From: an uncultured Lentisphaerota bacterium | GTDB taxonomy: Bacteria; Verrucomicrobiota; Lentisphaeria; Oligosphaerales; CAITYL01 | Assembly: GCA_903921725.1 (NCBI GenBank) | Contig: CAIXRA010000006.1 | Span: 115,588 to 179,587 of the forward strand | Length of the DNA: 64,000 nucleotides | Reading direction: 5' to 3' | Shown: piece after piece, positions 12,627-34,585 of the stretch | Numbering within the stretch: the first letter of the stretch is position 1 | How the letters are laid out: each line of letters starts with the position of its first letter | The notes under the pieces: generated by a model | The model's input: only the letters and a program-made list of their open reading frames with translations | Told to the model about the DNA's origin: nothing | The model's database searches: none | Program-made: the position numbers and the translations under genes

Positions 12627-15600
12627 TCACCGCGGGGTCAGCACGCCTTTCCACGTCAGGCCGGCATCGTCACTTTTGAAGATGCCATTGCGGCAGCACA
12701 GCCAGAGGAGGTCGGAGGTGGGATCGGTAGCGATGGACGTGATGCCCTGAAATGCCGTCTCGGGCTTGCGGGCGCTCCAGTCCACCGACCAGTAGTAACC
12801 AATCCGGCCGGCATACAACGAGACCGCGGTTGACGCCGAGTATGGCGCCGCGTAGAGATCGCTACGCTTGCGGGTGCCATTCGGCCGCGAGGCGATCGCC
12901 ATGTACGGGGTGTCGGCGACGACGGTATCCCTGTATTGGAAAAACAGTTCGAGATTGAAACAATAATACAAGCCGTGCGTCGTGGCGAAATACAGGTAAT
13001 TCCCGCCTTCGGCGATGCTTTCAAAGGCCACTCCATTGACGCCGAGCCCCAGCCTTTCGGCTACTTTGGTCGCCTGCGTGCCTTTGGCGCGCACAACATA
13101 GATCCGTCCGAAACGGCGCGGCTCCGGCGGCGCGACCGCCGGTTTTTCGGCGGGCGCGTCCGCCGAGGTTCCGACAATGAGCAAATCCTTCTCGCACGGA
13201 CTGAAGGCAACCACGGTAATGCGCTCTCCTTTCAGGCCCGCATACGCCCAGGTCAGGCCGCCGTCACGGCTGACATACAGGCCGCTGGCTTCGCCGCCGG
13301 CGGCAACGACGTTCGCGTCTTGCGGATCAAACGCGATGACTTCGCCGCCGAGGGCGGACGCCCCGGTGCCATCAAAATCAATGTCGCGGCAAACCACTTT
13401 CCACGTCTCGCCGCCATCATCACTTCGCCACAGGCCTCCCGTGCCGGGAAGCGTGGTGCCGCCGCCCCTGAGGAGCACCGCGGGATTGGCGGGCTGCACC
13501 GCCACGGAGCGGATGGCGTTCCCGGCTGGCGAATCCAGGCCGTTGTTCAAGGAACGCCAGACAGCGCCGCCATCGGTGGAGCCAAGCAAGCCCCCGCCCA
13601 CGGTTCGCGCATACAGCCGCCGGTTCGCCGGCACCACCGCGACAATGCGGCCTCTGACGTCGTCGCGCCCGACAATGGCGCGGGCGGCCGGATCCGGGAC
13701 AACCGGGCCCGGAACCGCCAGGGAAATCGATTCGACCGTGCCGGAGAACAGCGTTTTGTTTTTTCCGGATTCCTTGACGCGCATGTAGACCCCGACATGC
13801 AGCCGGTCGGGAAGGGTCCGGAACAGGCGGTCGATCACCGGCACCCAGTTGATGCCGTCCGTCGACGAAAACGCGCGCAGGTGATTGCCGCGCCGCACCA
13901 GCCGCACCCAAGGGCGCGTGGTGGCATTGCCCGCCGCATAGCGGCTCAGTCCCGAGGTCTCCAGATCACGGTCGCAGGCCGTGCCGCGCAGTTCCATGGT
14001 GGCCAGACTCCACAGGCCGAAATCCTCCGCAGTCCCTTGCGGCCGGGTTTGCCCACTGCACAGCAGGCCGATCAGCGAATTGCCCATGATGCCATTTTCC
14101 CGGGTGCTGCGGCTGATCGCGCTGATTTTGGCGCTCAGGTCGAAATCGCCCGCAACCGTCTGGTAGGCAAAGCTGGCACAATCGCCAAGCATCGACACCC
14201 GATCGGGCTGCGCATCAATCCCCAGCGGCAGGCCATGCTCACCCATCACCGAATGCTGCCAAGGGGCGGAGACGGCGTCCGCCACGACGCACTTGATCGG
14301 CGGCGAATCCAAGGACGCCGTCTGGTCGTACCACAGCCTGGCCCATACCGTATTGGCGCCGGAGGGCAGCAAGGCGGCATACCCGCCCGCAACGCCGGCC
14401 GGCGGCAGAACCGCAAGGCGGGTTTTTCCACAAAACAACTCCACGCGTGTCAGCACATGCCCGTTCGCCGCAGCAACCGGCGCAATGACCCCGCCAATCT
14501 CATTCCGTTGCACGCGGATGAAGGGAAGCCCGGGCGCGCTGCCGCAAACAAGATCGGACGCAGTGACCGTCCGTGCGGCAATCCCCGGCCCTTCCCAGGC
14601 AAGCCTTAGTTTGTTTTCCAGCCAATTCCCGGCTCCATCGGCCGACCTGAAATACAGCAGTTCGAACGGGTGCAGACCCCGCTGCAGCGCCATCGTCGCA
14701 TACTGGCTGTTGACGCTATGGCACCCGTCGTTGTCGACAACCGCTTTACCGTCAATCCTCAGCCTACTGCCGTCGCACGACCGCAGGTCAAACACGTAGA
14801 GGCCGTCCGCCGGCACCTTCAGGAATCCGCTGTAGCGGAACGCATACGGTGCGGACCGCCCGACGCTTACCGTGTCGTCGAGCTCGTTGAGCACGCCGCT
14901 GTACAGTGGCTGCCGCGTGTGTACCGCGGGCAGCGTTGTCCACCGCTCATCGGCGGCGGCTTCATAATACGAATACTGCACGCCCGGCCTGCACGTTGTG
15001 CCGGACTCAGCCGCCGCGACCGCCGGCACCGCCGCCACAGGCACCACCGCCACGGTCTTCTGGTCGTACACATCCGTGACCGTCAAACGGACGCTCCGCG
15101 CCGGCTCCGCCGCATCAAGACGGTGCGACCGCACGGCCGGCCCCATCCCGCGGGACTCTGCCAGCAGCCTGCCCCCGGCTTCCGGTTCGGCAAACAATTC
15201 AACGCGATAAGTCAGCTGCGGAGTGGATGTGCGTGGAATCGTCCACGACACCGCCACCTGCCCCTTGAATCCCACCGCCTGCACCTGCCCGGCCACCGGC
15301 TGGCCGAGGGAGGGTTGGTCGGGCTGGTTGGTGAGCGTGAGTTCGGTTTTTCCGGCAATGCCGTCTTTGATCGCATCCTCGGGGGTTCTCGCGGATGAAT
15401 AGCGGAACGCCGTGCCCTTGTCCACGATTTTGAAATGATGCAGAGACCCGTTGATTTCCTGAAGCGTGTCCGCCTTGCGCCAGGCGCCGTTCACGCGATG
15501 GTAGGCCAGCCGTCGCTCGATCACCCGTTCACCCGGCGGTCCGATGACCTCGCAAAAACACGCGCCGCAGTCCACGCCCGTCACCTTGGCGGGAATGGCC

Positions 15601-16151
15601 ACCACCCCCATCAAATGCCATTCATTGTTCTGCAAATCCCCAATCCACCATCCCAGATAGCCTTTCGTTTCGGGGGTCTGCGCATCCTGCCAGGTACGCA
15701 GCACCATCCGGTACCACTGGCCCGGTCGAAGAAAGGCAAGATTGCGGGTGAGGCCGGCTTGGGTCCCTTCGCCACTCATCACGCCACCGAACGTGCTCTC
15801 GCCGAGACACTCTATGCGGATGCGGTTGCCTTTGTACACCGCCTCGTTGCCCCAAAACGACCAGACAAGACTGCGGCTTGCCTTTGCCTGTGCTTCCGGC
15901 GAGCCGTCGCGTCCCGGTCCCGCCACCGCCACGCCGCCGTAGAAATACCCGCCCGCCGGGGCCGTATTCCCGTTCCACAGCGCAAAATAGGTGCCCGGCG
16001 GCCAGTATGGCCAGCGCACGTCAACGCTGACAATGTCCGGGCTGCGCTCCATGGCCGCCTTGTACCAATCCGCACGCGCCGTGGAAGGCACCACGCCCAA
16101 CCCCACCGCAAGAAAACCGGCGGCGACTGCGGTTGTGATGCGCATGGTCAT
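12627..16151 (-). CDS. Large secreted multidomain protein (DUF3472-like, PA14-like, concanavalin-like, BNR/sortilin-like propeller)
   Basis: Signal peptide; PA14-like YSGFLKVPADGLYVFDLRSCDGSRLRIDGKAVVDN; repeated SxDGGxTW boxes (SDDGGETWKVV, SRDGGLTWAYA, SDDAGLTWKGV). Confidence 0.75.
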   Translation of the reverse strand: MTMRITTAVAAGFLAVGLGVVPSTARADWYKAAMERSPDIVSVDVRWPYWPPGTYFALWNGNTAPAGGYFYGGVAVAGPGRDGSPEAQAKASRSLVWSFWGNEAVYKGNRIRIECLGESTFGGVMSGEGTQAGLTRNLAFLRPGQWYRMVLRTWQDAQTPETKGYLGWWIGDLQNNEWHLMGVVAIPAKVTGVDCGACFCEVIGPPGERVIERRLAYHRVNGAWRKADTLQEINGSLHHFKIVDKGTAFRYSSARTPEDAIKDGIAGKTELTLTNQPDQPSLGQPVAGQVQAVGFKGQVAVSWTIPRTSTPQLTYRVELFAEPEAGGRLLAESRGMGPAVRSHRLDAAEPARSVRLTVTDVYDQKTVAVVPVAAVPAVAAAESGTTCRPGVQYSYYEAAADERWTTLPAVHTRQPLYSGVLNELDDTVSVGRSAPYAFRYSGFLKVPADGLYVFDLRSCDGSRLRIDGKAVVDNDGCHSVNSQYATMALQRGLHPFELLYFRSADGAGNWLENKLRLAWEGPGIAARTVTASDLVCGSAPGLPFIRVQRNEIGGVIAPVAAANGHVLTRVELFCGKTRLAVLPPAGVAGGYAALLPSGANTVWARLWYDQTASLDSPPIKCVVADAVSAPWQHSVMGEHGLPLGIDAQPDRVSMLGDCASFAYQTVAGDFDLSAKISAISRSTRENGIMGNSLIGLLCSGQTRPQGTAEDFGLWSLATMELRGTACDRDLETSGLSRYAAGNATTRPWVRLVRRGNHLRAFSSTDGINWVPVIDRLFRTLPDRLHVGVYMRVKESGKNKTLFSGTVESISLAVPGPVVPDPAARAIVGRDDVRGRIVAVVPANRRLYARTVGGGLLGSTDGGAVWRSLNNGLDSPAGNAIRSVAVQPANPAVLLRGGGTTLPGTGGLWRSDDGGETWKVVCRDIDFDGTGASALGGEVIAFDPQDANVVAAGGEASGLYVSRDGGLTWAYAGLKGERITVVAFSPCEKDLLIVGTSADAPAEKPAVAPPEPRRFGRIYVVRAKGTQATKVAERLGLGVNGVAFESIAEGGNYLYFATTHGLYYCFNLELFFQYRDTVVADTPYMAIASRPNGTRKRSDLYAAPYSASTAVSLYAGRIGYYWSVDWSARKPETAFQGITSIATDPTSDLLWLCCRNGIFKSDDAGLTWKGVLTPR

Positions 16152-16441: not shown

Positions 16442-16472
16442 TAAGGGTGTTGGAAGACTTCCAACACCCTAA
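16442..16472. repeat. Perfect palindrome built from the MITE ends: TAA-GGGTGTTGGAAG-A-CTTCCAACACCC-TAA
   Basis: 12-bp arms with 1-nt spacer, identical to the outermost 12 bp of the 5253-5524 element TIRs, flanked by TAA on both sides. Confidence 0.92.
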
Positions 16473-17662
16473 AGACCGACGCGGGAGCAGTACCAGAGCA
16501 TGCGCGGGTAGTGGAAGAACCCCTTCCACATGTTGCCCTTGAGGCGCACGGAGGGGGTGCCGTCGCGGTGCAGGTAGCCGTACCACTCGCCGAACTCGGG
16601 GTCGGAAAAATGCTTGAACGACCAGTCGTGCACGAGCTTGTGCCAGCCGGCATATTTGGCGTCGCCGGTCATCTCGAAGGCGAGCATGGTGGCGATGACG
16701 GCCTCGTTGTGCGGCCACCAGAACTTCATGTCCTGCCAGTATTCCTGGACCGGCTTGCCGTGCACGTCGCGGAAATAGAGGATGCCGCCGAACTCCTTGT
16801 CCCAGCCCCACTCCCACATCCAGTCGAGGATGGTCAAGCCGGTCTTCTTCAACCCTTCGTCGCCGCGCAGTTTCGCTTCGTGGAGGATGAACCAAGCGGC
16901 CTCGATGGCGTGGCCGGGGTTGAGGATGCGCCCGTCGAAGTGGTCGATGATGGAGCCATCGGGGGCGACACACTCCATGACGGCCTGCAGCTCCGGCTTC
17001 ATGAAATCCTTGCGGATCTCGGCCACGGCGCGGTCGATCCACTGCGAACAGCTGGCGCCCTCGACCGTGATGTCGCCGAGGTTGGCGCGCACTTCCTGGG
17101 CGGTGACCATGGCAATCATGAACGGGGCAAGCCCCTTGCCCGGGCGCTCCGCCTTGGCCGGGATCAGCCCGGGCGTGAAGCTGTAGCGCAGGTAGGTTGC
17201 AAAGGCGGCCTTGGCGCGCTCCGCCAGCGCGGCGTCGCCGGTGGCCTTGGACAGCGCGGCGTAGGCGATGGCGGCGAAGCTCTCGCTGTACACGTAGCGG
17301 CGCATGCGCAGCGGCTTGCCCTCGCGGGTGACGGTGAAGTACATCTTGCCGTCCGGCGCGAAGCAGTGCTTCGTCATGAACGCCTCGCCGCTGCGGGCGG
17401 CCTCCAGCCATTCGGGGCGCTTTTCGATGGTGTTGTACATCGTGGCGAACATCCAGGAGCAGCGCCCCTGGAACCAGACGGCCTTGTCGGTATCCAGGAC
17501 GGAACCGTCGCGGTCGAGCGAGGTAATGAAACCGCCGTGCTCGCGGTCGAGGGCGTTCTTCAGCCAGAACGGCGCCACGTCCTCCAGCAGCGTCCTGCCG
17601 TAGAAGTCGCGGAGCCCGGCCATTTCGGAAGCGGAATAGGCGGTCATGAAAAAGAACTCCAT
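16469..17662 (-). CDS. N-acylglucosamine 2-epimerase (AGE/RnBP family)
   Basis: (alpha/alpha)6 AGE pattern: GGFITSLDRDGS...DKAVWFQGRCSWMFATMYN...NPGHAIEAAWFILHEA. Confidence 0.9.
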   Translation of the reverse strand: MEFFFMTAYSASEMAGLRDFYGRTLLEDVAPFWLKNALDREHGGFITSLDRDGSVLDTDKAVWFQGRCSWMFATMYNTIEKRPEWLEAARSGEAFMTKHCFAPDGKMYFTVTREGKPLRMRRYVYSESFAAIAYAALSKATGDAALAERAKAAFATYLRYSFTPGLIPAKAERPGKGLAPFMIAMVTAQEVRANLGDITVEGASCSQWIDRAVAEIRKDFMKPELQAVMECVAPDGSIIDHFDGRILNPGHAIEAAWFILHEAKLRGDEGLKKTGLTILDWMWEWGWDKEFGGILYFRDVHGKPVQEYWQDMKFWWPHNEAVIATMLAFEMTGDAKYAGWHKLVHDWSFKHFSDPEFGEWYGYLHRDGTPSVRLKGNMWKGFFHYPRMLWYCSRVGL

Positions 17663-17734: not shown

Positions 17735-18664
17735 TCACTTGCCCAGAATCGCCTTTAGGCGGGTGGTGATGTCCTTTTTCTGCTCGGCGGTGAGCGCCTT
17801 CAGCGGCAGCCGGACGTCGCCGGCGTCGATGCCGTGGATGGCCATCATCGCCTTGCCGCCGGCCACGCCGCCGTACTGGACGAGGATGTCCACGATTTGG
17901 CAGACCTTGGCCATGCCGGCTTGGGCGGCCTTGAGGTCGCCCGTCTCGACGTTGCGCCAGATCTTCTGGTACAGCGGCGCGGCGTAATTGTAGGTCGAGC
18001 CGATGGCCGACTTGGCGCCAAGGGCGACCGCGCCGGCGAGGAACTCGTCCACGCCCCAGGTGATGTCATACTTGCCGCCGCAGGCGCGCATGCAGTTCTG
18101 GTACTCGTAGAGGTCGGGATTGTTGAACTTGATGCCGGCCAGGTTCGGGACCTTGCTGGCGGCGGCCTCCAGGAACTTGACCATCGGCAGGTTCACGCCG
18201 GACATGGTGGTGTGGTAGTAGTAAAACGGAAGCTTGGGCGCGTGGGAGGCGATGGCGCTGACGTACTCGACCAGCATGTCGACCGAGCCGGGCTTGAAGA
18301 AGTTGGCCGGAACGATCGAGGTGGCGTCGGCGCCGGCCTTCTGTGCATGCGCGGCCAGCTCCTGGGCATCGCGGATGGAAAGCGCGCCGACATGGACGAT
18401 GATGACCAGCCGGCCCTTGGCCTGCTTCACCCACTCTTCCACCACCGCCTTGCGTTCGGCGACGGAGCAGGAGATCCCCTCGCCGGTGGTGCCGCAGACG
18501 TAGGCGCCGGTGACGCCGTTCTTGACCAGCAGGGCGACCTGCTTCCTGATCTCCTTCAGGTTGACGTTGCCGGCGCGGTCAAAGGGCGTGTGCGGCGCCG
18601 CAATCAGCCCTTCCAGCTTCTTGAATTTCGGGGCGGAGCTTTTTTTCGTCGACTTGGTAGCCAT
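17735..18664 (-). CDS. nanA: N-acetylneuraminate lyase / DHDPS-family aldolase
   Basis: GLIAAPHTPFDRAGNVN; GAYVCGTTGEGISCSVAER; PFYYYHTTMSGV; LAGIKFNNPDL. Confidence 0.9.
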   Translation of the reverse strand: MATKSTKKSSAPKFKKLEGLIAAPHTPFDRAGNVNLKEIRKQVALLVKNGVTGAYVCGTTGEGISCSVAERKAVVEEWVKQAKGRLVIIVHVGALSIRDAQELAAHAQKAGADATSIVPANFFKPGSVDMLVEYVSAIASHAPKLPFYYYHTTMSGVNLPMVKFLEAAASKVPNLAGIKFNNPDLYEYQNCMRACGGKYDITWGVDEFLAGAVALGAKSAIGSTYNYAAPLYQKIWRNVETGDLKAAQAGMAKVCQIVDILVQYGGVAGGKAMMAIHGIDAGDVRLPLKALTAEQKKDITTRLKAILGK

Positions 18665-18722: not shown

Positions 18723-21005
18723 CTACGCGGACTCCGCTTCGCGCCGGGGTTTGACCAGGAACAGGATGCCGCCGGCCAGTAGCAGGCCGACCGCCGCGAA
18801 CTTGAACACGATGCCTAGGTCGATCTGCTGGTCCTTGAGCATGCCGCCGACATAGATCATGATGCCGCCGGTGACGCAGCCGACCATGTTCAGCAGGCCG
18901 TAGCCGGTGGCGCGGTAGCGCGGGTCGGAAACCTGGCAGAGGATCGGCATCAGGTTGGCGTCGGAGAAGCCGCGGGCGACACCGAATACCAGCAGCCCCA
19001 CAATCGCGACGGACAGCACGGCGGTGGAGGCGGAGAGGAAGAGGAACGGCGCGGCGACGAGAAAGCCGATGGCGGGAATCAGGATGCGGCCGCGCACGTT
19101 CGTCCGGCACCACAGGTCGGCAAAGAAACCACCGAGCAGGATGCCGATGAAGGAGGCGAACTGGACATAGAAGGTCGCGTTCATGCCCGCAGCGCCCTGG
19201 CCGAGGTGAAAATGCTCCTGAAGATAGGTCGGAAGCCAGCCGTTGATCCCCCAGAACGCCATGGCCAGAAGGCTGTTGTAGACGAGGAGGAAGAGGAACG
19301 ATCCGCGGGAGAGCAGGTCGCCGAGCGCGGAGAAGAGCCGCACGTTTTCCTTCGCGGCGCCGCCGGGTGCGGACTCCGCAACCACACCGTGGTGGACATC
19401 CTTCAGCGGCCAGAAAATGACGATCGCGTAGGCGATGCCGACAAAGCCGAAGATGGTGAAGCTGGAACGCCAGCCGAACATCTCCGCGATGATGCCTCCG
19501 AGGCCGCCCATCGCGGCACCGGCGTAGAGGCCGCTCATGTGGATGCCGGTGGCCAGCGACCGGGTCGGCCCGCGGTGATAGTCGGCAATCAGCGCCAGCG
19601 CAGCCGGAATGTAGAACGCCTCGCTGATGCCCATGACGGCGCGCGCCGCCAACAGCTGGTTCAGGCTGTGGGTGTGGCCGGTGAGCCAGGTGACGACCGA
19701 CCAGACCAGGAGGCTCACGATGATGACCTTGCTGCGGCTGAAGCGGTCGGCCAGGTAGCCGCCGAACGGGCTGAAAATGGCGTAGACCCAAAGAAAGACC
19801 GTGGTCAACAGCCCGAAGTTCGCATAGGTCATCGGGTGGGAGATTTCCGGGGAACGCGTGGCGGCGCGGATTTCGCCGCTGACGACGATGTTGCGTCCCT
19901 GCCAGGCGACCATCGGGGTGGTGACGCGCGCCGCCCCCGGCATCTCGCCGATGGCCTTCCACTCGTCCTTGCGCACGTCATAGCGGACGACATCCCGGCG
20001 GAAACCGGTGCGTTTCCCGGGCGGCAGGGCCTGTTCCGAGCCGTCGTCGCCGCCGTAGAACATGAAGACGCCGTTGCCGCCCGACGCGGCGGGGGATGGC
20101 ATGCCCAGAAGCGGCCACGGCATGTCCGCCGTCCGTTTCCAGGCCGCCGAAGCCGGGTCAAACTGCCAGCTGTCCCGGAGATAGCTTTTCCGCTTCTGCT
20201 TTCCGTCCGGCCCGGCCATCAGTTCCGCTCCGCCGGCGACATGGAAGCGGCCGCGGGAAGGCGCCTGGACACCGGCCGCCGTCTTGGCGCTGTCGGGGCC
20301 AGCGGAAGCGGCCGCGCCGGCGAGGATGCGGGCCGGACCGGGGAACGCGGGCTGCGTTTTCCAGCCTTCGGCAGGCTTGTCGAGATCGAGCGCCCACAGC
20401 GCCGCGGAGGCGGCGGTGGCGCCGGGGGCCGTTTCGCCACCGGTGACGTAGAACGTGGAGCCGACGACCTTGCCGGCAAGCGTGGTGTCCACAACCGCGC
20501 CGCAGGCATTGGCGAGCGGCTGGGGAAGCGGCGGAAGGGGCTCAATCTCCACCAGGCGTTTTGCCGGGTTCCATTTCAGCAGGAACGCATCGGCGTAATG
20601 CCGGTCCGCGTCGCTGCCACCGGCGCAGACCACGCCGCCCTTGAAGGAGGCGGAGACGCCGTAGGCCAGGGGGCGGAGTAGTTTTCCGGCCTCGATCCAT
20701 GCGCCGTTGGGTTTCTCAAGGACGTAAATCTTGTCCAGCCAGACTTTTTTTCCGCCTTCCCACGGCTTGCCGTTGGGGAAGTTCGCGCCGCCGGCGACGA
20801 CCAGCGCATCGCCGGAAACCCCGGCGAACGGGGCGGCCACGCCAAGCGGATCGGGGATCGGCGCCATCTGCTCCCAGGTCGCAGATTTGATCGAGTCGCC
20901 CATGGTGGTGATCATGAGGCGGTCGAGGTAGTTGAGCATCGCGATGACCCAGAGCAGGCCGACGATCACCCAGGCGCGGGTCATGGAGGAAGGTCCGATG
21001 TTCAT
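18723..21005 (-). CDS. MFS transporter with a kelch-type sialic acid mutarotase domain inserted between TM1 and TM2
   Basis: aa 11-40 MFS TM1 (AWVIVGLLWVIAMLNYLDRLMITTMGDSIK); aa ~44-388 kelch mutarotase (VAGGANFPNGKPWEGGKKVWLDKIYVLEK...VVSGEIRAATRSPEI); aa 391-760 remaining MFS (MTYANFGLLTTVFLWVYAIFSPFGGYLADRF...). One uninterrupted 760-aa ORF. Confidence 0.93.
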   Translation of the reverse strand: MNIGPSSMTRAWVIVGLLWVIAMLNYLDRLMITTMGDSIKSATWEQMAPIPDPLGVAAPFAGVSGDALVVAGGANFPNGKPWEGGKKVWLDKIYVLEKPNGAWIEAGKLLRPLAYGVSASFKGGVVCAGGSDADRHYADAFLLKWNPAKRLVEIEPLPPLPQPLANACGAVVDTTLAGKVVGSTFYVTGGETAPGATAASAALWALDLDKPAEGWKTQPAFPGPARILAGAAASAGPDSAKTAAGVQAPSRGRFHVAGGAELMAGPDGKQKRKSYLRDSWQFDPASAAWKRTADMPWPLLGMPSPAASGGNGVFMFYGGDDGSEQALPPGKRTGFRRDVVRYDVRKDEWKAIGEMPGAARVTTPMVAWQGRNIVVSGEIRAATRSPEISHPMTYANFGLLTTVFLWVYAIFSPFGGYLADRFSRSKVIIVSLLVWSVVTWLTGHTHSLNQLLAARAVMGISEAFYIPAALALIADYHRGPTRSLATGIHMSGLYAGAAMGGLGGIIAEMFGWRSSFTIFGFVGIAYAIVIFWPLKDVHHGVVAESAPGGAAKENVRLFSALGDLLSRGSFLFLLVYNSLLAMAFWGINGWLPTYLQEHFHLGQGAAGMNATFYVQFASFIGILLGGFFADLWCRTNVRGRILIPAIGFLVAAPFLFLSASTAVLSVAIVGLLVFGVARGFSDANLMPILCQVSDPRYRATGYGLLNMVGCVTGGIMIYVGGMLKDQQIDLGIVFKFAAVGLLLAGGILFLVKPRREAESA
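19842..20876 (-). other. Inserted NanM/cyclically-permuted-mutarotase-like domain within the MFS ORF
   Basis: Subregion of 18723-21005 corresponding to aa ~44-388. Confidence 0.85.
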
Positions 21006-22615
21006 TTGCCGGTTCCCCGTTCTGCTTTTGTGGAGGCCGTATCCGGCGCAAGTTCATCAATCCTGAACGCTTGGAAAACCAACGCGGCGCGGCTGCCTTC
21101 GTAGAGGATGCCGACCGTCCTGGCGTCAATCTGCGCCATGCAGGAATAGCCGGCACTGCCCAGCTCGTCCACCAGGGTGTACCGGTTTTCAGGCCAGGTC
21201 ATGCCGTCGTCCGAGCTGACCTTAATCGTCATATGGGTGCGTCCGCCGCGGGTCGCCGGGTTTGAGAAGAGCAGCAGCCCCTTCGGGTCAAAGCGGATCA
21301 GGCTGGCCATGCAGACCGGCTCCGGCAACGCCTTCCGCGAGGTGGGGTGCTCCTCCCAGGTCGCGCCGAAATCCTTCGTGGTGTAGACTGAGCGGGAGCC
21401 GCCGCGGTTGTCGCGCATGTTCAGCATCAGCGTGCCGTCGGAAAGCTCGACGACCTGGGCTTCGGTGGTGTTGGACTTCGGTCCTTCCTGAAGCTTCCAG
21501 GTCTTGCCGCCGTCCCGGCTGCAGGCGATGGTGGAGTACGGCATCTTCTTCGCATCCCAGTACTGCGCGGGGAACACCAGCACGCCAGCCCGCGTGGTGA
21601 TTCCCATGCCCGGCCCTTGGAACACGATCTTCCATTCCCGTTGCTTGATCTGCGGCGTGATGGACTCCGGCTTGGACCACGAGCGTCCGTCGTTAGTGCT
21701 TTTCACCAGCATGAACTGGCCGGACTCCTCAGGGGTGAACCCCGGGCCGGAACCATGAATGGAGCGGTTGCCGTGGCTCCACAGCGCCGCCACCCAGGTG
21801 ACGCCGGTCTTGTGGTCCACCAGCACGGTTGGATCGCCGATGCCGTTTCCGCTGAACTTGTCGTGGTCGCCCATGTCCATGATGGTCTTCATCGGCGCCC
21901 ATGTCCGACCGCCGTCCACGCTGCGGCTCATGCCGACATCAATACGGCCCGGCAGGTCGCCTCCGTTTTTATAACGGATGTCGTACACGGCAATGAGCGT
22001 CCCCGCCTTCGTCACCGCCAGGCCGGGAATCCGGTAAGCGACGGATCCGTCATCCCCCCCTTTGCGCAGTGCGATTCCGATCCGCAAACGGCCGTCGCCC
22101 CCGTCCGTCCGCGGCTCCGGTACGGGTTTCAGCACCGTTCCACCCGCCAGACGCAGCTCCGCGACGGCGGCGCGCACGCGGTGGAACGGATCCGCCTTGT
22201 CCTGCAGCTCGCAAGAGACAACGAAGTAATGCGTGCCGGCCGCCAGTTCCAAGGGGGCGGAAAAGGTCATAGCCGCCGCCGCCGGCTGCGCCGAGCCGAA
22301 CGGCTTCAGCGGATCCAGCTTGTCCGACTGCGCCTCCAGCGCATACGGATCCTTGGCCCCGGCGTAGTACACGCGGAAGCTTTTCACGTCCTTCAGGTCA
22401 TCCGTCCCCTCCGTTTTCACCAGCAGGGAGGCGGCCTGCACGGTTTCCCGGCATTCAATCTTGATGCGGCAGAGCGGGTTATATGCCTTGCGGACCAGGA
22501 CGGGAACGGTTTTGAACGCGGAGGTGCACGCCGCATCCGCTCCAGCCGCAACGGCAGGGAGCGCCAATCCGGCGATGCCCGCAAAAATCGAAATCCGGCA
22601 AAACAGCCTGTGCAT
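21002..22615 (-). CDS. Secreted exo-alpha-sialidase (BNR repeat neuraminidase, GH33-type)
   Basis: Signal peptide; YRIPGLAVTKAGTLIAVYDIR; Asp boxes SVDGGRTW, STNDGRSW, SRDGGKTW, SSDDGMTW; stop overlaps the downstream start by ATGA. Confidence 0.94.
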   Translation of the reverse strand: MHRLFCRISIFAGIAGLALPAVAAGADAACTSAFKTVPVLVRKAYNPLCRIKIECRETVQAASLLVKTEGTDDLKDVKSFRVYYAGAKDPYALEAQSDKLDPLKPFGSAQPAAAAMTFSAPLELAAGTHYFVVSCELQDKADPFHRVRAAVAELRLAGGTVLKPVPEPRTDGGDGRLRIGIALRKGGDDGSVAYRIPGLAVTKAGTLIAVYDIRYKNGGDLPGRIDVGMSRSVDGGRTWAPMKTIMDMGDHDKFSGNGIGDPTVLVDHKTGVTWVAALWSHGNRSIHGSGPGFTPEESGQFMLVKSTNDGRSWSKPESITPQIKQREWKIVFQGPGMGITTRAGVLVFPAQYWDAKKMPYSTIACSRDGGKTWKLQEGPKSNTTEAQVVELSDGTLMLNMRDNRGGSRSVYTTKDFGATWEEHPTSRKALPEPVCMASLIRFDPKGLLLFSNPATRGGRTHMTIKVSSDDGMTWPENRYTLVDELGSAGYSCMAQIDARTVGILYEGSRAALVFQAFRIDELAPDTASTKAERGTGK

Positions 22616-31351: not shown

Positions 31352-34300
31352 TTATTTGAAGGTCTTTTCCGCGAGGCCGTCGCCGGCGAGGGCGAGGCGG
31401 CCGAAGTAGGCGGGGACGTCCTTGCCTGTGAGCGCGTCCACATAGAGCTTGGCCAGGTACTGGCTGAGCATGAACCCCTGGCCGCGCAGGCCGCCAAAGA
31501 GGCCGAGCTTGGGATCGATGATGATCCGCGGTTCGACGTAGTAGCCGGACCAGACGGCCTGGAAGCCGACTGACGAGAGGTCCGGCAGCCAGTCCACAAA
31601 GACCTCTGAGGCGATCTCCAGGAACTGCTGCGTGTTGACCTTGAGATCCTTGCCAGCCTCGGCGGGGTCGGTGAGCGGCGAGGCGCAGGCGATGATCTGG
31701 CCGGTCTCGGCGAGCTGCTGGCCGTAAACGGCAGTAAAGCCGGCGTACGGCCGGCGGTCGATCAGCATCGGCAGCGGTTCGCCGTTGACGCCCATCGGCG
31801 GCAGGCGGCGCGTGATGAAGGCCTGGTGGCGGACGGGGTAGAACCCGGTCTCGATCCCCAGCCCGGCCGCGAACTTGCCGCATTCGGCGCCGAGGGCGTT
31901 GACGAAGACGGGGGTGTGGTACTCGACGGCCTCGAACGTCTCATGGCAGCGGACGAGCACCTTGTAGAGGCCGTCCTCCTTCCGGACGTCGAGTACGCGG
32001 CTGTCCTCGAGGATCGCGCCGCCGTGGCGGATGCCGATGGTGCGCAGCAGGTCGATGACCTTGCCGGGCGTCGCCTGCCAGCAGTCGCGGGTGACGAGCG
32101 CGGCCAGGTACTTGTCCAGCGCGGGGTTGAGGCGGTCGGAAATCTCCCTGCGGAACTCCTTGGGCTCCACCAGGTAGGCGTCGGACCAGGCGCGGGAGGC
32201 GTCGAGCGCCTTGAGCATGGCCTGGTCGTGCGCGAAGGTGACGTACACGGTCTGGCGGTAGTCCACCGGCTTGAGCGCGTGCAACTCCCGGAACAGGTCG
32301 TGGTTGCGCATGGCGATGTCGGAGAGTTCCGGCACGCTGAAGCTCGGACGCCCCGCGGCGATGTTGCGCCAGGAGGAGCCGCGCTCGAAATTGACCAGCA
32401 CCGGCTTCATCCCGGCCTCTGAGAAGTAGCGGAAGAGCGAGCTGCCGGCGATGCCGCCGCCGCCGATCAGGCAGTCGACCTTCACCACGCGGCGCGTCCC
32501 GCCGTGCGCATGGGTGAGGATCTCGCCGCGGCCGGCGCCCGGATAGGTTTCGCCGAGGCGGACCTGGCTGGAGAGCGGCGCGCGCGGTGTGACCTCGCCG
32601 ACCAGCGAGATGCCGAGCGGATGCAGGAGCTGCTTGAGCCGGCGGAAGCAGCGCTTGCCGCGGCAGGCGCCCATGCCGAGGCGCGTGGTGTGCTTGACCT
32701 CGTCGACGGAGATGAATTTGCGGTTGCCGACCGCCTCCAAAATTTCGCCGAGCGTCACATCCTCGCAGTGGCAGATGTAGGACTCGGCGGCGCATTCGCC
32801 GGACTGCCCGAACGTGACCGGTTCCGGCCGGCGTTCCGGCGGGATGAAGCCGCGCACGGCCATCAGCTTCTCCGGTGCGAACTCCGGCGCGTCGATGCGC
32901 ACCAGGTGCGGCATGGCGGCCTTGCGCACGACCTTGCCGATGCGGCCGGTCCCGAGCACGCACCCCCGGTTGTCCACCAGGTCGGCCGTCCCGCCCTCCG
33001 CCGTCTCGAACTCCACCGGCAGGAAGACCTGCTTCTTCTCCAGGTCGTAGCCGAAGATCGCCAGCCCCGGGCATTTCGTCACGCAGAGCATGCAGCCGAC
33101 GCACTTGCTGAAATCCACCACCGGCACCGTGCTCGTGGAGCTCTTGGTGATGGCGCCGTGGGGGCAGGCGAAGGCGCAGGGGTTGCAGGCGAAGCCGTAG
33201 AGGCAGTCCGCCACCACGAACGGCTTGCGGCGGCGCTCGCCGGCCGGTTCGGCGGGCTTTTCGAGCACGCGCACCGGGTGCTGCTGCGAGTCGATGAACT
33301 CCTTCGAGACCTGGAGGTAGTCGTTGTAGGGGAAGCGCGCGCCCATCGCGGCCAGGATCTCGTAGGCCGCCTGCCGCCCGCGCAGCACCGCCGTGGTGCC
33401 CTCGCCGATGCGGACCGCGTCGCCGACGCCGAAGCAGTTCAAGCCGAAGACCTGCTGCCCCTTCGTCAGGAGCTGGTCGTCCGGCACCAGGCCGGTGCAG
33501 ATGTTGATCGCGTCGATCCCCTCGATCACGCGCTCCGTGCCGGGGATCGGCTTGAAATGCTTGCACTCGGCGACGACCGCGCCGGTGATGCCGTCCTTGG
33601 CCGCGTTCGGGATCGCCTTCAGCAGGATGTGCGAGGTCAGCACCGGGATGCCGAGCCGGCGGACGCGGTTGGCCTGCACCGGGAAGCCGCCCTCATGCGG
33701 CATCGCCTCGATGATCGCCTTGACGTTCGCCCCGGCCTGCGCGAGCTGGTAGGAGGTCAGGTAGCCGATGTTCCCCGCGCCGACGGTCAGCACGTTCTTC
33801 CCGAGCAGCGTGAACTCCTGGTTCATCATCTTCTGGACCACGGCGGCGGTGTACACCCCCGGGAGGTCGTCGTTCTCGAACGGCGGCATGAACGGCACCG
33901 CGCCGGCCGCCACCACCAGGTAGTCGGCATCGACGTAGAAGATCTCGTTGCTGAGGATGTTCTTGACCGCGAGCCGGCGCCCCTCGAGCACGTCCCATAC
34001 GACGGAGTTCAGCAGGATCCCCGAATGGTCGCCGCCCGCCAGCGTGCCGGCGATCTCGAATCCGCGCCGCCCGCCGAAGCGCGGCTCCTTCTCGAAGAAG
34101 AAAAACTGGTGCGTCTGCATGAGGAACTGGCCGCCGATGCTGGCGTTGCCGTCCACGACCAGATTCGGGATCTTGTGCTGGTCGAGCAGTTCGCGCGCCG
34201 CCAGGCCGGCCGGGCCCGCGCCGATGATCGCAACGCGCGTCTGGTACACCTTCGCGGGGGCACCGGACGGATGCAGCGGGATCGCCTGCGGCTGGAAGTC

Positions 34301-34585
34301 TTCCGGAATCTCGCGGACCTCGCGCACGCCGTCCACCGGGGTCACGCAGATCCGCCGGATCTGGCCGTCCACCAGCATCTCGCAGGCGCCGCACTTGCCG
34401 ATGCCGCACTCCAGGCTGCGCTTGCGCTTGTGCAGGCTGTGGCTGTGCACGGGGAAGCCCGCCTGATGCAGTGCCGCCGCGATGGTGAATCCCTGTTTCC
34501 CCTCAACGGGCCTGCCCTCGAACAGGAACGTCACGGGCGCCGCTTCGGGAACCGTCAGGATCGGATGTTTCGTCACGCCGTACAT
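31352..34585 (-). CDS. Multidomain fusion: 2Fe-2S ferredoxin + FAD/NAD(P) reductase + 4Fe-4S ferredoxin + BFD-like 2Fe-2S + DAO-family FAD oxidase (HcnABC / opine oxidase-like)
   Basis: LECGIGKCGACEMLVDGQIRRIC; VAIIGAGPAGLAARELL; CLYGFACNPCAFACPHGAI...CVGCMLCVTKCPG; ICHCEDVTLGEILEAV...RLGMGACRGKRCFRR; VDCLIGGGGIAGSSLFRYF, contiguous 1077 aa. Confidence 0.9.
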   Translation of the reverse strand: MYGVTKHPILTVPEAAPVTFLFEGRPVEGKQGFTIAAALHQAGFPVHSHSLHKRKRSLECGIGKCGACEMLVDGQIRRICVTPVDGVREVREIPEDFQPQAIPLHPSGAPAKVYQTRVAIIGAGPAGLAARELLDQHKIPNLVVDGNASIGGQFLMQTHQFFFFEKEPRFGGRRGFEIAGTLAGGDHSGILLNSVVWDVLEGRRLAVKNILSNEIFYVDADYLVVAAGAVPFMPPFENDDLPGVYTAAVVQKMMNQEFTLLGKNVLTVGAGNIGYLTSYQLAQAGANVKAIIEAMPHEGGFPVQANRVRRLGIPVLTSHILLKAIPNAAKDGITGAVVAECKHFKPIPGTERVIEGIDAINICTGLVPDDQLLTKGQQVFGLNCFGVGDAVRIGEGTTAVLRGRQAAYEILAAMGARFPYNDYLQVSKEFIDSQQHPVRVLEKPAEPAGERRRKPFVVADCLYGFACNPCAFACPHGAITKSSTSTVPVVDFSKCVGCMLCVTKCPGLAIFGYDLEKKQVFLPVEFETAEGGTADLVDNRGCVLGTGRIGKVVRKAAMPHLVRIDAPEFAPEKLMAVRGFIPPERRPEPVTFGQSGECAAESYICHCEDVTLGEILEAVGNRKFISVDEVKHTTRLGMGACRGKRCFRRLKQLLHPLGISLVGEVTPRAPLSSQVRLGETYPGAGRGEILTHAHGGTRRVVKVDCLIGGGGIAGSSLFRYFSEAGMKPVLVNFERGSSWRNIAAGRPSFSVPELSDIAMRNHDLFRELHALKPVDYRQTVYVTFAHDQAMLKALDASRAWSDAYLVEPKEFRREISDRLNPALDKYLAALVTRDCWQATPGKVIDLLRTIGIRHGGAILEDSRVLDVRKEDGLYKVLVRCHETFEAVEYHTPVFVNALGAECGKFAAGLGIETGFYPVRHQAFITRRLPPMGVNGEPLPMLIDRRPYAGFTAVYGQQLAETGQIIACASPLTDPAEAGKDLKVNTQQFLEIASEVFVDWLPDLSSVGFQAVWSGYYVEPRIIIDPKLGLFGGLRGQGFMLSQYLAKLYVDALTGKDVPAYFGRLALAGDGLAEKTFK

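Follow-up and report, generated by a model that had tools for sequence, protein, structure and literature searches.

A mutarotase propeller within an MFS transporter gene

The window, meaning the whole stretch of 64,000 nucleotides analysed here, carries a group of sialic-acid genes, in which an open reading frame of 760 aa runs on the minus strand from an ATG at 21005 to a stop codon at 18725-18723. The initial annotation had taken this frame for a single polypeptide made of an MFS transporter and a NanM-type mutarotase; the frame proved correct, and the sequences quoted from it at the time were found in it. The features of the locus are as follows.

16469..17662 (-): N-acylglucosamine 2-epimerase (AGE) family gene; best NCBIfam match NF052547, 375 bits (cut-off 600)
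17735..18664 (-): N-acetylneuraminate lyase-like gene, DHDPS family; best NCBIfam match PRK04147, below its cut-off
18723..21005 (-): MFS transporter with inserted NanM-type mutarotase propeller, 760-aa frame (Pfam, NCBIfam, model)
18726..19838 (-): MFS TM2-TM12, residues ~390-760 (MFS_1, alignment, model, Foldseek)
19839..20882 (-): cyclically permuted mutarotase insert, residues ~42-389, boundaries +/-3 residues (PF24996, TIGR03548, model)
19854..19874 (-): catalytic-loop motif E378-x5-R384 (permuted alignment to E. coli NanM; conservation)
20901..20981 (-): MFS TM1, residues ~9-35 (alignment to relatives; helix 5-34 in the model)
21002..22615 (-): upstream sialidase gene, BNR_2/BNR_3 and BNR_assoc_N domains (Pfam), with an N-terminal signal-peptide-like segment
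22822..23967 (+): regulator gene, LacI-type sugar-binding domain and AraC-type HTH (Pfam/NCBIfam)

The stop codon of the sialidase gene overlaps the start codon of the fusion gene (ATGA), and the lyase-like and 2-epimerase genes follow downstream on the same strand, so that the adjoining sialidase, lyase and epimerase genes support the sialic-acid context in which the fusion had been interpreted. The divergent LacI/AraC-type regulator is a candidate controller of the cluster. Further downstream on the same strand (12627-16151) lies a gene for a 1174-aa protein with DUF3472, PA14 and C-terminal BNR repeats. Elsewhere in the window, a 1077-aa frame (31352-34585, minus strand) combines Fer2_4, Pyr_redox_2, 4Fe-4S, BFD-type and FAD-dependent DAO domains and resembles fused subunits of a hydroxyproline/sarcosine-type dehydrogenase.

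Profile searches found both families in the fusion frame. MFS_1 (Pfam, 175 bits) matched in two stretches, the main one spanning residues 393-715 from profile position 30, while NANM (PF24996) matched in three stretches from residue 40 (95.9 bits, cut-off 45). TIGR03548, the model for permuted mutarotases, matched with 127.8 bits, under its cut-off of 243.2; the mutarotase part scored under both curated cut-offs (TIGR03547 and TIGR03548), and a relative encoded by a separate gene (L013) also fell under that of TIGR03548 (144 bits). The PF24996 score above cut-off and the TIGR03548 match place the insert in the NanM family, as the initial annotation had it.

The insert occupies the first loop of the transporter. 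In MFS relatives a single tblastn HSP covers the first helix and TM2 without a break, and in the close relative L069 the uninterrupted TM1-TM2 loop reads NYLDRLMITTMRDPIKADIAMTDAQFGLL, whereas in the window protein NYLDRLMITTMGDSIKS is followed by ATWEQMAPIPD...VVSGEIRAATRSPEIS and then by HPMTYANFGLL, so that the propeller sits exactly in the TM1-TM2 loop. The insert (about 348 aa) runs from the first conserved Trp of the mature propeller to the RSPE[V/I] motif and lacks both the signal peptide and the C-terminal tail of the mutarotases.

Conservation, predicted fold and topology

Both parts retain the residues that characterise their families. The transporter keeps 78 of the 79 columns that reach 90% conservation or more among 62 homologues; eight of those kept lie in TM1 (W12, V15, L18, L24, N25, Y26, D28 and R29). 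Mean identity to relatives is 57% in TM1 against 47.5% in TM2-12, which argues that TM1 is not decaying. The propeller keeps 31 of the 34 columns that pass the same 90% threshold across 89 mutarotases, among them E378 and R384. In the permuted alignment these two align with E228 and R234 of the E. coli NanM precursor, which on subtraction of a 19-residue signal peptide become E209 and R215, consistent with the catalytic pair of NanM in mature numbering. The three deviations from the family are P to L at residue 110, P to A at 381 and G to A at 382. Residues 381 and 382 lie between the catalytic residues and are Pro and Gly in 98% of the 89 mutarotases, a pair that is conserved but not known to be defining for the family; as both are Ala in the window protein, catalysis is not to be assumed.

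An AlphaFold model of the full chain (mean pLDDT 91.9, pTM 0.85) folds both domains confidently, with pLDDT above 90 over most of the mutarotase domain. In the model, TM1 (5-34) is followed by a short helix (36-42) and the first strand (44-47), and the last strand (388-391) by TM2 (from 394), leaving only 1-2 residues as linker to the helix on each side. Foldseek matched the propeller to kelch structures (E ~1e-13, TMt 0.7-0.8) as a six-bladed kelch fold, and the transporter to the D-galactonate symporter DgoT (6e9n) and human sialin (8u3d); by these matches, MFS_1 and the model, it is an ACS/SLC17-like MFS protein with 12 TM helices. Together, the match scores, the invariant columns kept in both parts and the confident model exclude a chance origin of the two-domain reading.

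The topology of the chain is fixed by motif A, GGYLADRFSRSK, between TM2 and TM3. Motif A is cytoplasmic in MFS proteins, and the insert would therefore lie in the periplasm, which supports the position originally proposed for it. By the order of the kelch strands, the chain enters the propeller at strand d and leaves it at strand c, with E378 and R384 in the b-c loop. Kelch topology thus suggests that the catalytic loop points away from the membrane, on the other face of the propeller from the c-d connection, an orientation that does not support direct channelling into the transporter.

A misjoin of neighbouring mutarotase and MFS genes during assembly might be considered since the fusion is known from one genome, a draft of 82 contigs, and separate adjacent genes are the norm among relatives. 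However, it would have had to create two independent joints, both in frame and exactly at domain edges, with the signal peptide and tail removed and no conserved MFS column lost; the junctions share only a 6-base word, about chance level for microhomology, GC3 is high along the whole fusion gene (0.83-0.93), and the gene lies deep inside a long contig. In view of the in-frame joints, the intact MFS columns beside them and the high GC3, we consider a chimera highly improbable. Occurrence in one genome, with no close relative for a test of selection, would also be expected of a non-functional fusion heading for decay, yet the frame is free of stops and frameshifts, the family residues are kept in TM1, TM2-12 and propeller alike, the predicted fold is confident, and the two parts are intact even though they are at most 58% and at most 48% identical to the nearest relatives found; decay is, on this evidence, extremely improbable.

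Relatives, other fusions and origin

Insertion between TM1 and TM2 had been called unusual, and our searches agree with this: no second case was found in ~1,400 distinct genomes (1,982 genome searches, with each taxonomic group sampled and few candidates scored per genome). These included 48 genomes of the order to which the window belongs, 199 of its class, further samples of the phylum and samples of the taxonomic groups to which one Isosphaeraceae (Planctomycetota) and one Sphingobacterium (Bacteroidota) genome belong; plasmids, viral contigs and a contig scan (54 loci) likewise yielded no loop-1 insertion. Several long-frame candidates (L122, L128-L130, L137) turned out to be stretches upstream of the start codon, end fusions or separate genes.

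At the loci fetched, 41 mutarotases had genes of their own, accompanied by a related MFS gene at the same locus, 29 were fused end to end with another multi-helix transporter (by hydropathy; Pfam SSF in L035 and L041, the two tested), and three were end-fused to an MFS protein, each with one extra hydrophobic helix between the propeller and TM1. In none of these 32 other fusions does TM1 precede the propeller, and the window protein is itself not an end fusion. The tether of a mutarotase to a transporter is not in itself unique to this protein, as end fusions to SSS and, with an extra helix, to MFS transporters exist. The literature searched describes neither the loop fusion nor mutarotase end fusions, although its coverage was incomplete and such absence is weak evidence.

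End fusions of mutarotases to multi-helix transporters are widespread in Bacteroidota, Planctomycetota and Verrucomicrobiota (L002 in G009, L029, L035, L038, L041-L043, L045-L065 and others; SSF in the two tested). At three Akkermansia-type loci (L086, L087 and L093, in G263, G045 and G144), mutarotase and MFS share a frame with a single stop between them, and the MFS frame has an extra N-terminal helix; at L085, L089 and L090 that stop is absent, so that one codon separates the fused from the split state. The Akkermansia-type loci L087, L089, L090, L093 and L097 each have two mutarotases in a row. One stands alone and the other is fused to the MFS or lies next to it, and the members of such pairs occupy separate branches of the mutarotase tree.

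The closest counterparts of the two halves are adjacent gene pairs (for example L013, L017 and G050), in which the MFS protein is up to 58% identical to that of the window; there, however, the two are separate genes and the mutarotase has an N-terminal signal-peptide-like extension that the window insert lacks. In the MFS tree, the window protein neighbours a clade of Verrucomicrobiota and Bacteroidota in which the MFS genes are intact (support 86/72), and the Akkermansia-type fusions are on a separate branch; in the mutarotase tree, its propeller falls among Verrucomicrobiota mutarotases with weak support. The simplest history would be that an adjacent mutarotase gene entered the MFS loop and lost its signal peptide in the process.

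Known systems differ from the window protein as follows. E. coli NanM (YjhT, PDB 2uvk) is likewise a six-bladed kelch propeller with an E-x5-R pair in its catalytic loop, acting in the periplasm upstream of a sialic-acid transporter, but it is a soluble, non-permuted homodimer with a signal peptide, whereas the window domain is permuted and held within a transporter loop; its catalytic loop has PG where the window domain has AA. The Akkermansia-type mutarotase-TM0-MFS fusions (L085, L089, L090) unite the same two families in one chain, with the propeller before TM1 and an extra helix added to the 12-TM MFS, whereas the propeller of the window follows TM1. MFS proteins begin on the inner, cytoplasmic side, and an N-terminal periplasmic enzyme therefore needs either an extra helix or a site in an outer loop. 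The mutarotase-SSS end fusions (such as L035 and L041; PF24996 and PF00474) also combine a permuted mutarotase and a transporter, but with the mutarotase N-terminal to a sodium symporter. In the characterised SSS sialic-acid transporter SiaT the N-terminus is periplasmic (PMC5931594), so that a periplasmic enzyme can be joined there directly without a topology problem. The data thus suggest a rule of topology, by which the enzyme is attached directly to SSS transporters and through an extra helix or a loop to MFS transporters. The termini of the propeller are adjacent, an arrangement favourable to insertion into a tight loop. A domain between TM1 and TM2 is also known from SLC22 transporters such as hOCT1, where it is extracellular (PMC10940649); it shares the outer face with the window insert but has ~100 residues, is not an enzyme and belongs to a different MFS family.

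Proposed function and significance

We propose that the protein is an MFS importer of sialic acid, probably coupled to protons, and carries a periplasmic mutarotase of its own in the TM1-TM2 loop (probability about 0.7). Architecture, fold, conserved residues and gene order in this proposal come from the sequence and the model; periplasmic position, activity, substrate and proton coupling are carried over from the families. TM1 would insert with its N-terminus inside and serve, as a signal-anchor, as the export signal for a propeller devoid of a signal peptide, which would then fold in the periplasm, its neighbouring termini running straight into TM1 and TM2. GH33 sialidases are retaining, and the co-encoded sialidase, if retaining, would free alpha-Neu5Ac. 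The propeller would accelerate its conversion to beta-Neu5Ac, to be taken up by the MFS part, and the lyase followed by the 2-epimerase would turn imported Neu5Ac into GlcNAc. This scheme agrees with reports that retaining sialidases free alpha-Neu5Ac and that NanM accelerates the conversion of this anomer to the beta form, that NanM acts upstream of the transporter and may raise uptake by NanT (PMC10017367), and that the structure of a sialic-acid symporter contains beta-Neu5Ac (PMC5931594).

Rival readings concern catalysis and substrate. With P381 and G382 replaced, the propeller might have lost or changed its catalysis and act as a sialic-acid capture domain, like a substrate-binding protein, as the E/R pair could still bind sugar. 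We regard this as unlikely: E378, R384 and 29 further invariant columns are kept, other members of the family lose as many columns (3 of 37; observed range 0-6), and a genome-wide search found the fusion to be the only NANM-family protein of its genome, leaving no other mutarotase to take over. (The same genome, G000, has eight BNR_2, that is sialidase-like, matches against one mutarotase.) As to substrate, the best NCBIfam match of the MFS part is a D-galactonate transporter subfamily, far under cut-off, and the E. coli NanT family (ST1) model NF003024 gave only 38.9 bits against a cut-off of 604, as might be expected if transporter and propeller acted on a related compound (another nonulosonate, 2,7-anhydro-Neu5Ac or a hexonate) rather than Neu5Ac. 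This is very unlikely given the adjacent sialidase, lyase and AGE epimerase genes, the homologous MFS genes next to mutarotase genes in many genomes (Sphingobacterium and Prevotella among them) and the presence of human sialin among the Foldseek matches.

For a sialic-acid importer with a built-in mutarotase, the most likely benefit would be that enzyme and transporter occur in a fixed 1:1 ratio and that the enzyme stays next to the transporter at the inner membrane, rather than any channelling. It is conceivable, if distinctly unlikely, that the two very short linkers couple the enzyme mechanically to alternating access, so that mutarotation and uptake regulate each other; the enzyme would then be integrated into the MFS fold itself and not be an appended module.

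The arrangement looks like a new way to build an enzyme-transporter unit, because in all relatives found the mutarotase is separate or attached at an end. It would add a third means of keeping a periplasmic mutarotase at its transporter, beside direct end fusion to SSS proteins and the extra helix of the Akkermansia type, and the loop route requires neither an extra helix nor a signal peptide. The protein offers a natural case of an MFS loop tolerating an enzyme of ~350 residues, and it makes testable whether tethering a mutarotase to its importer improves the capture of sialic acid, earlier studied only with soluble NanM.
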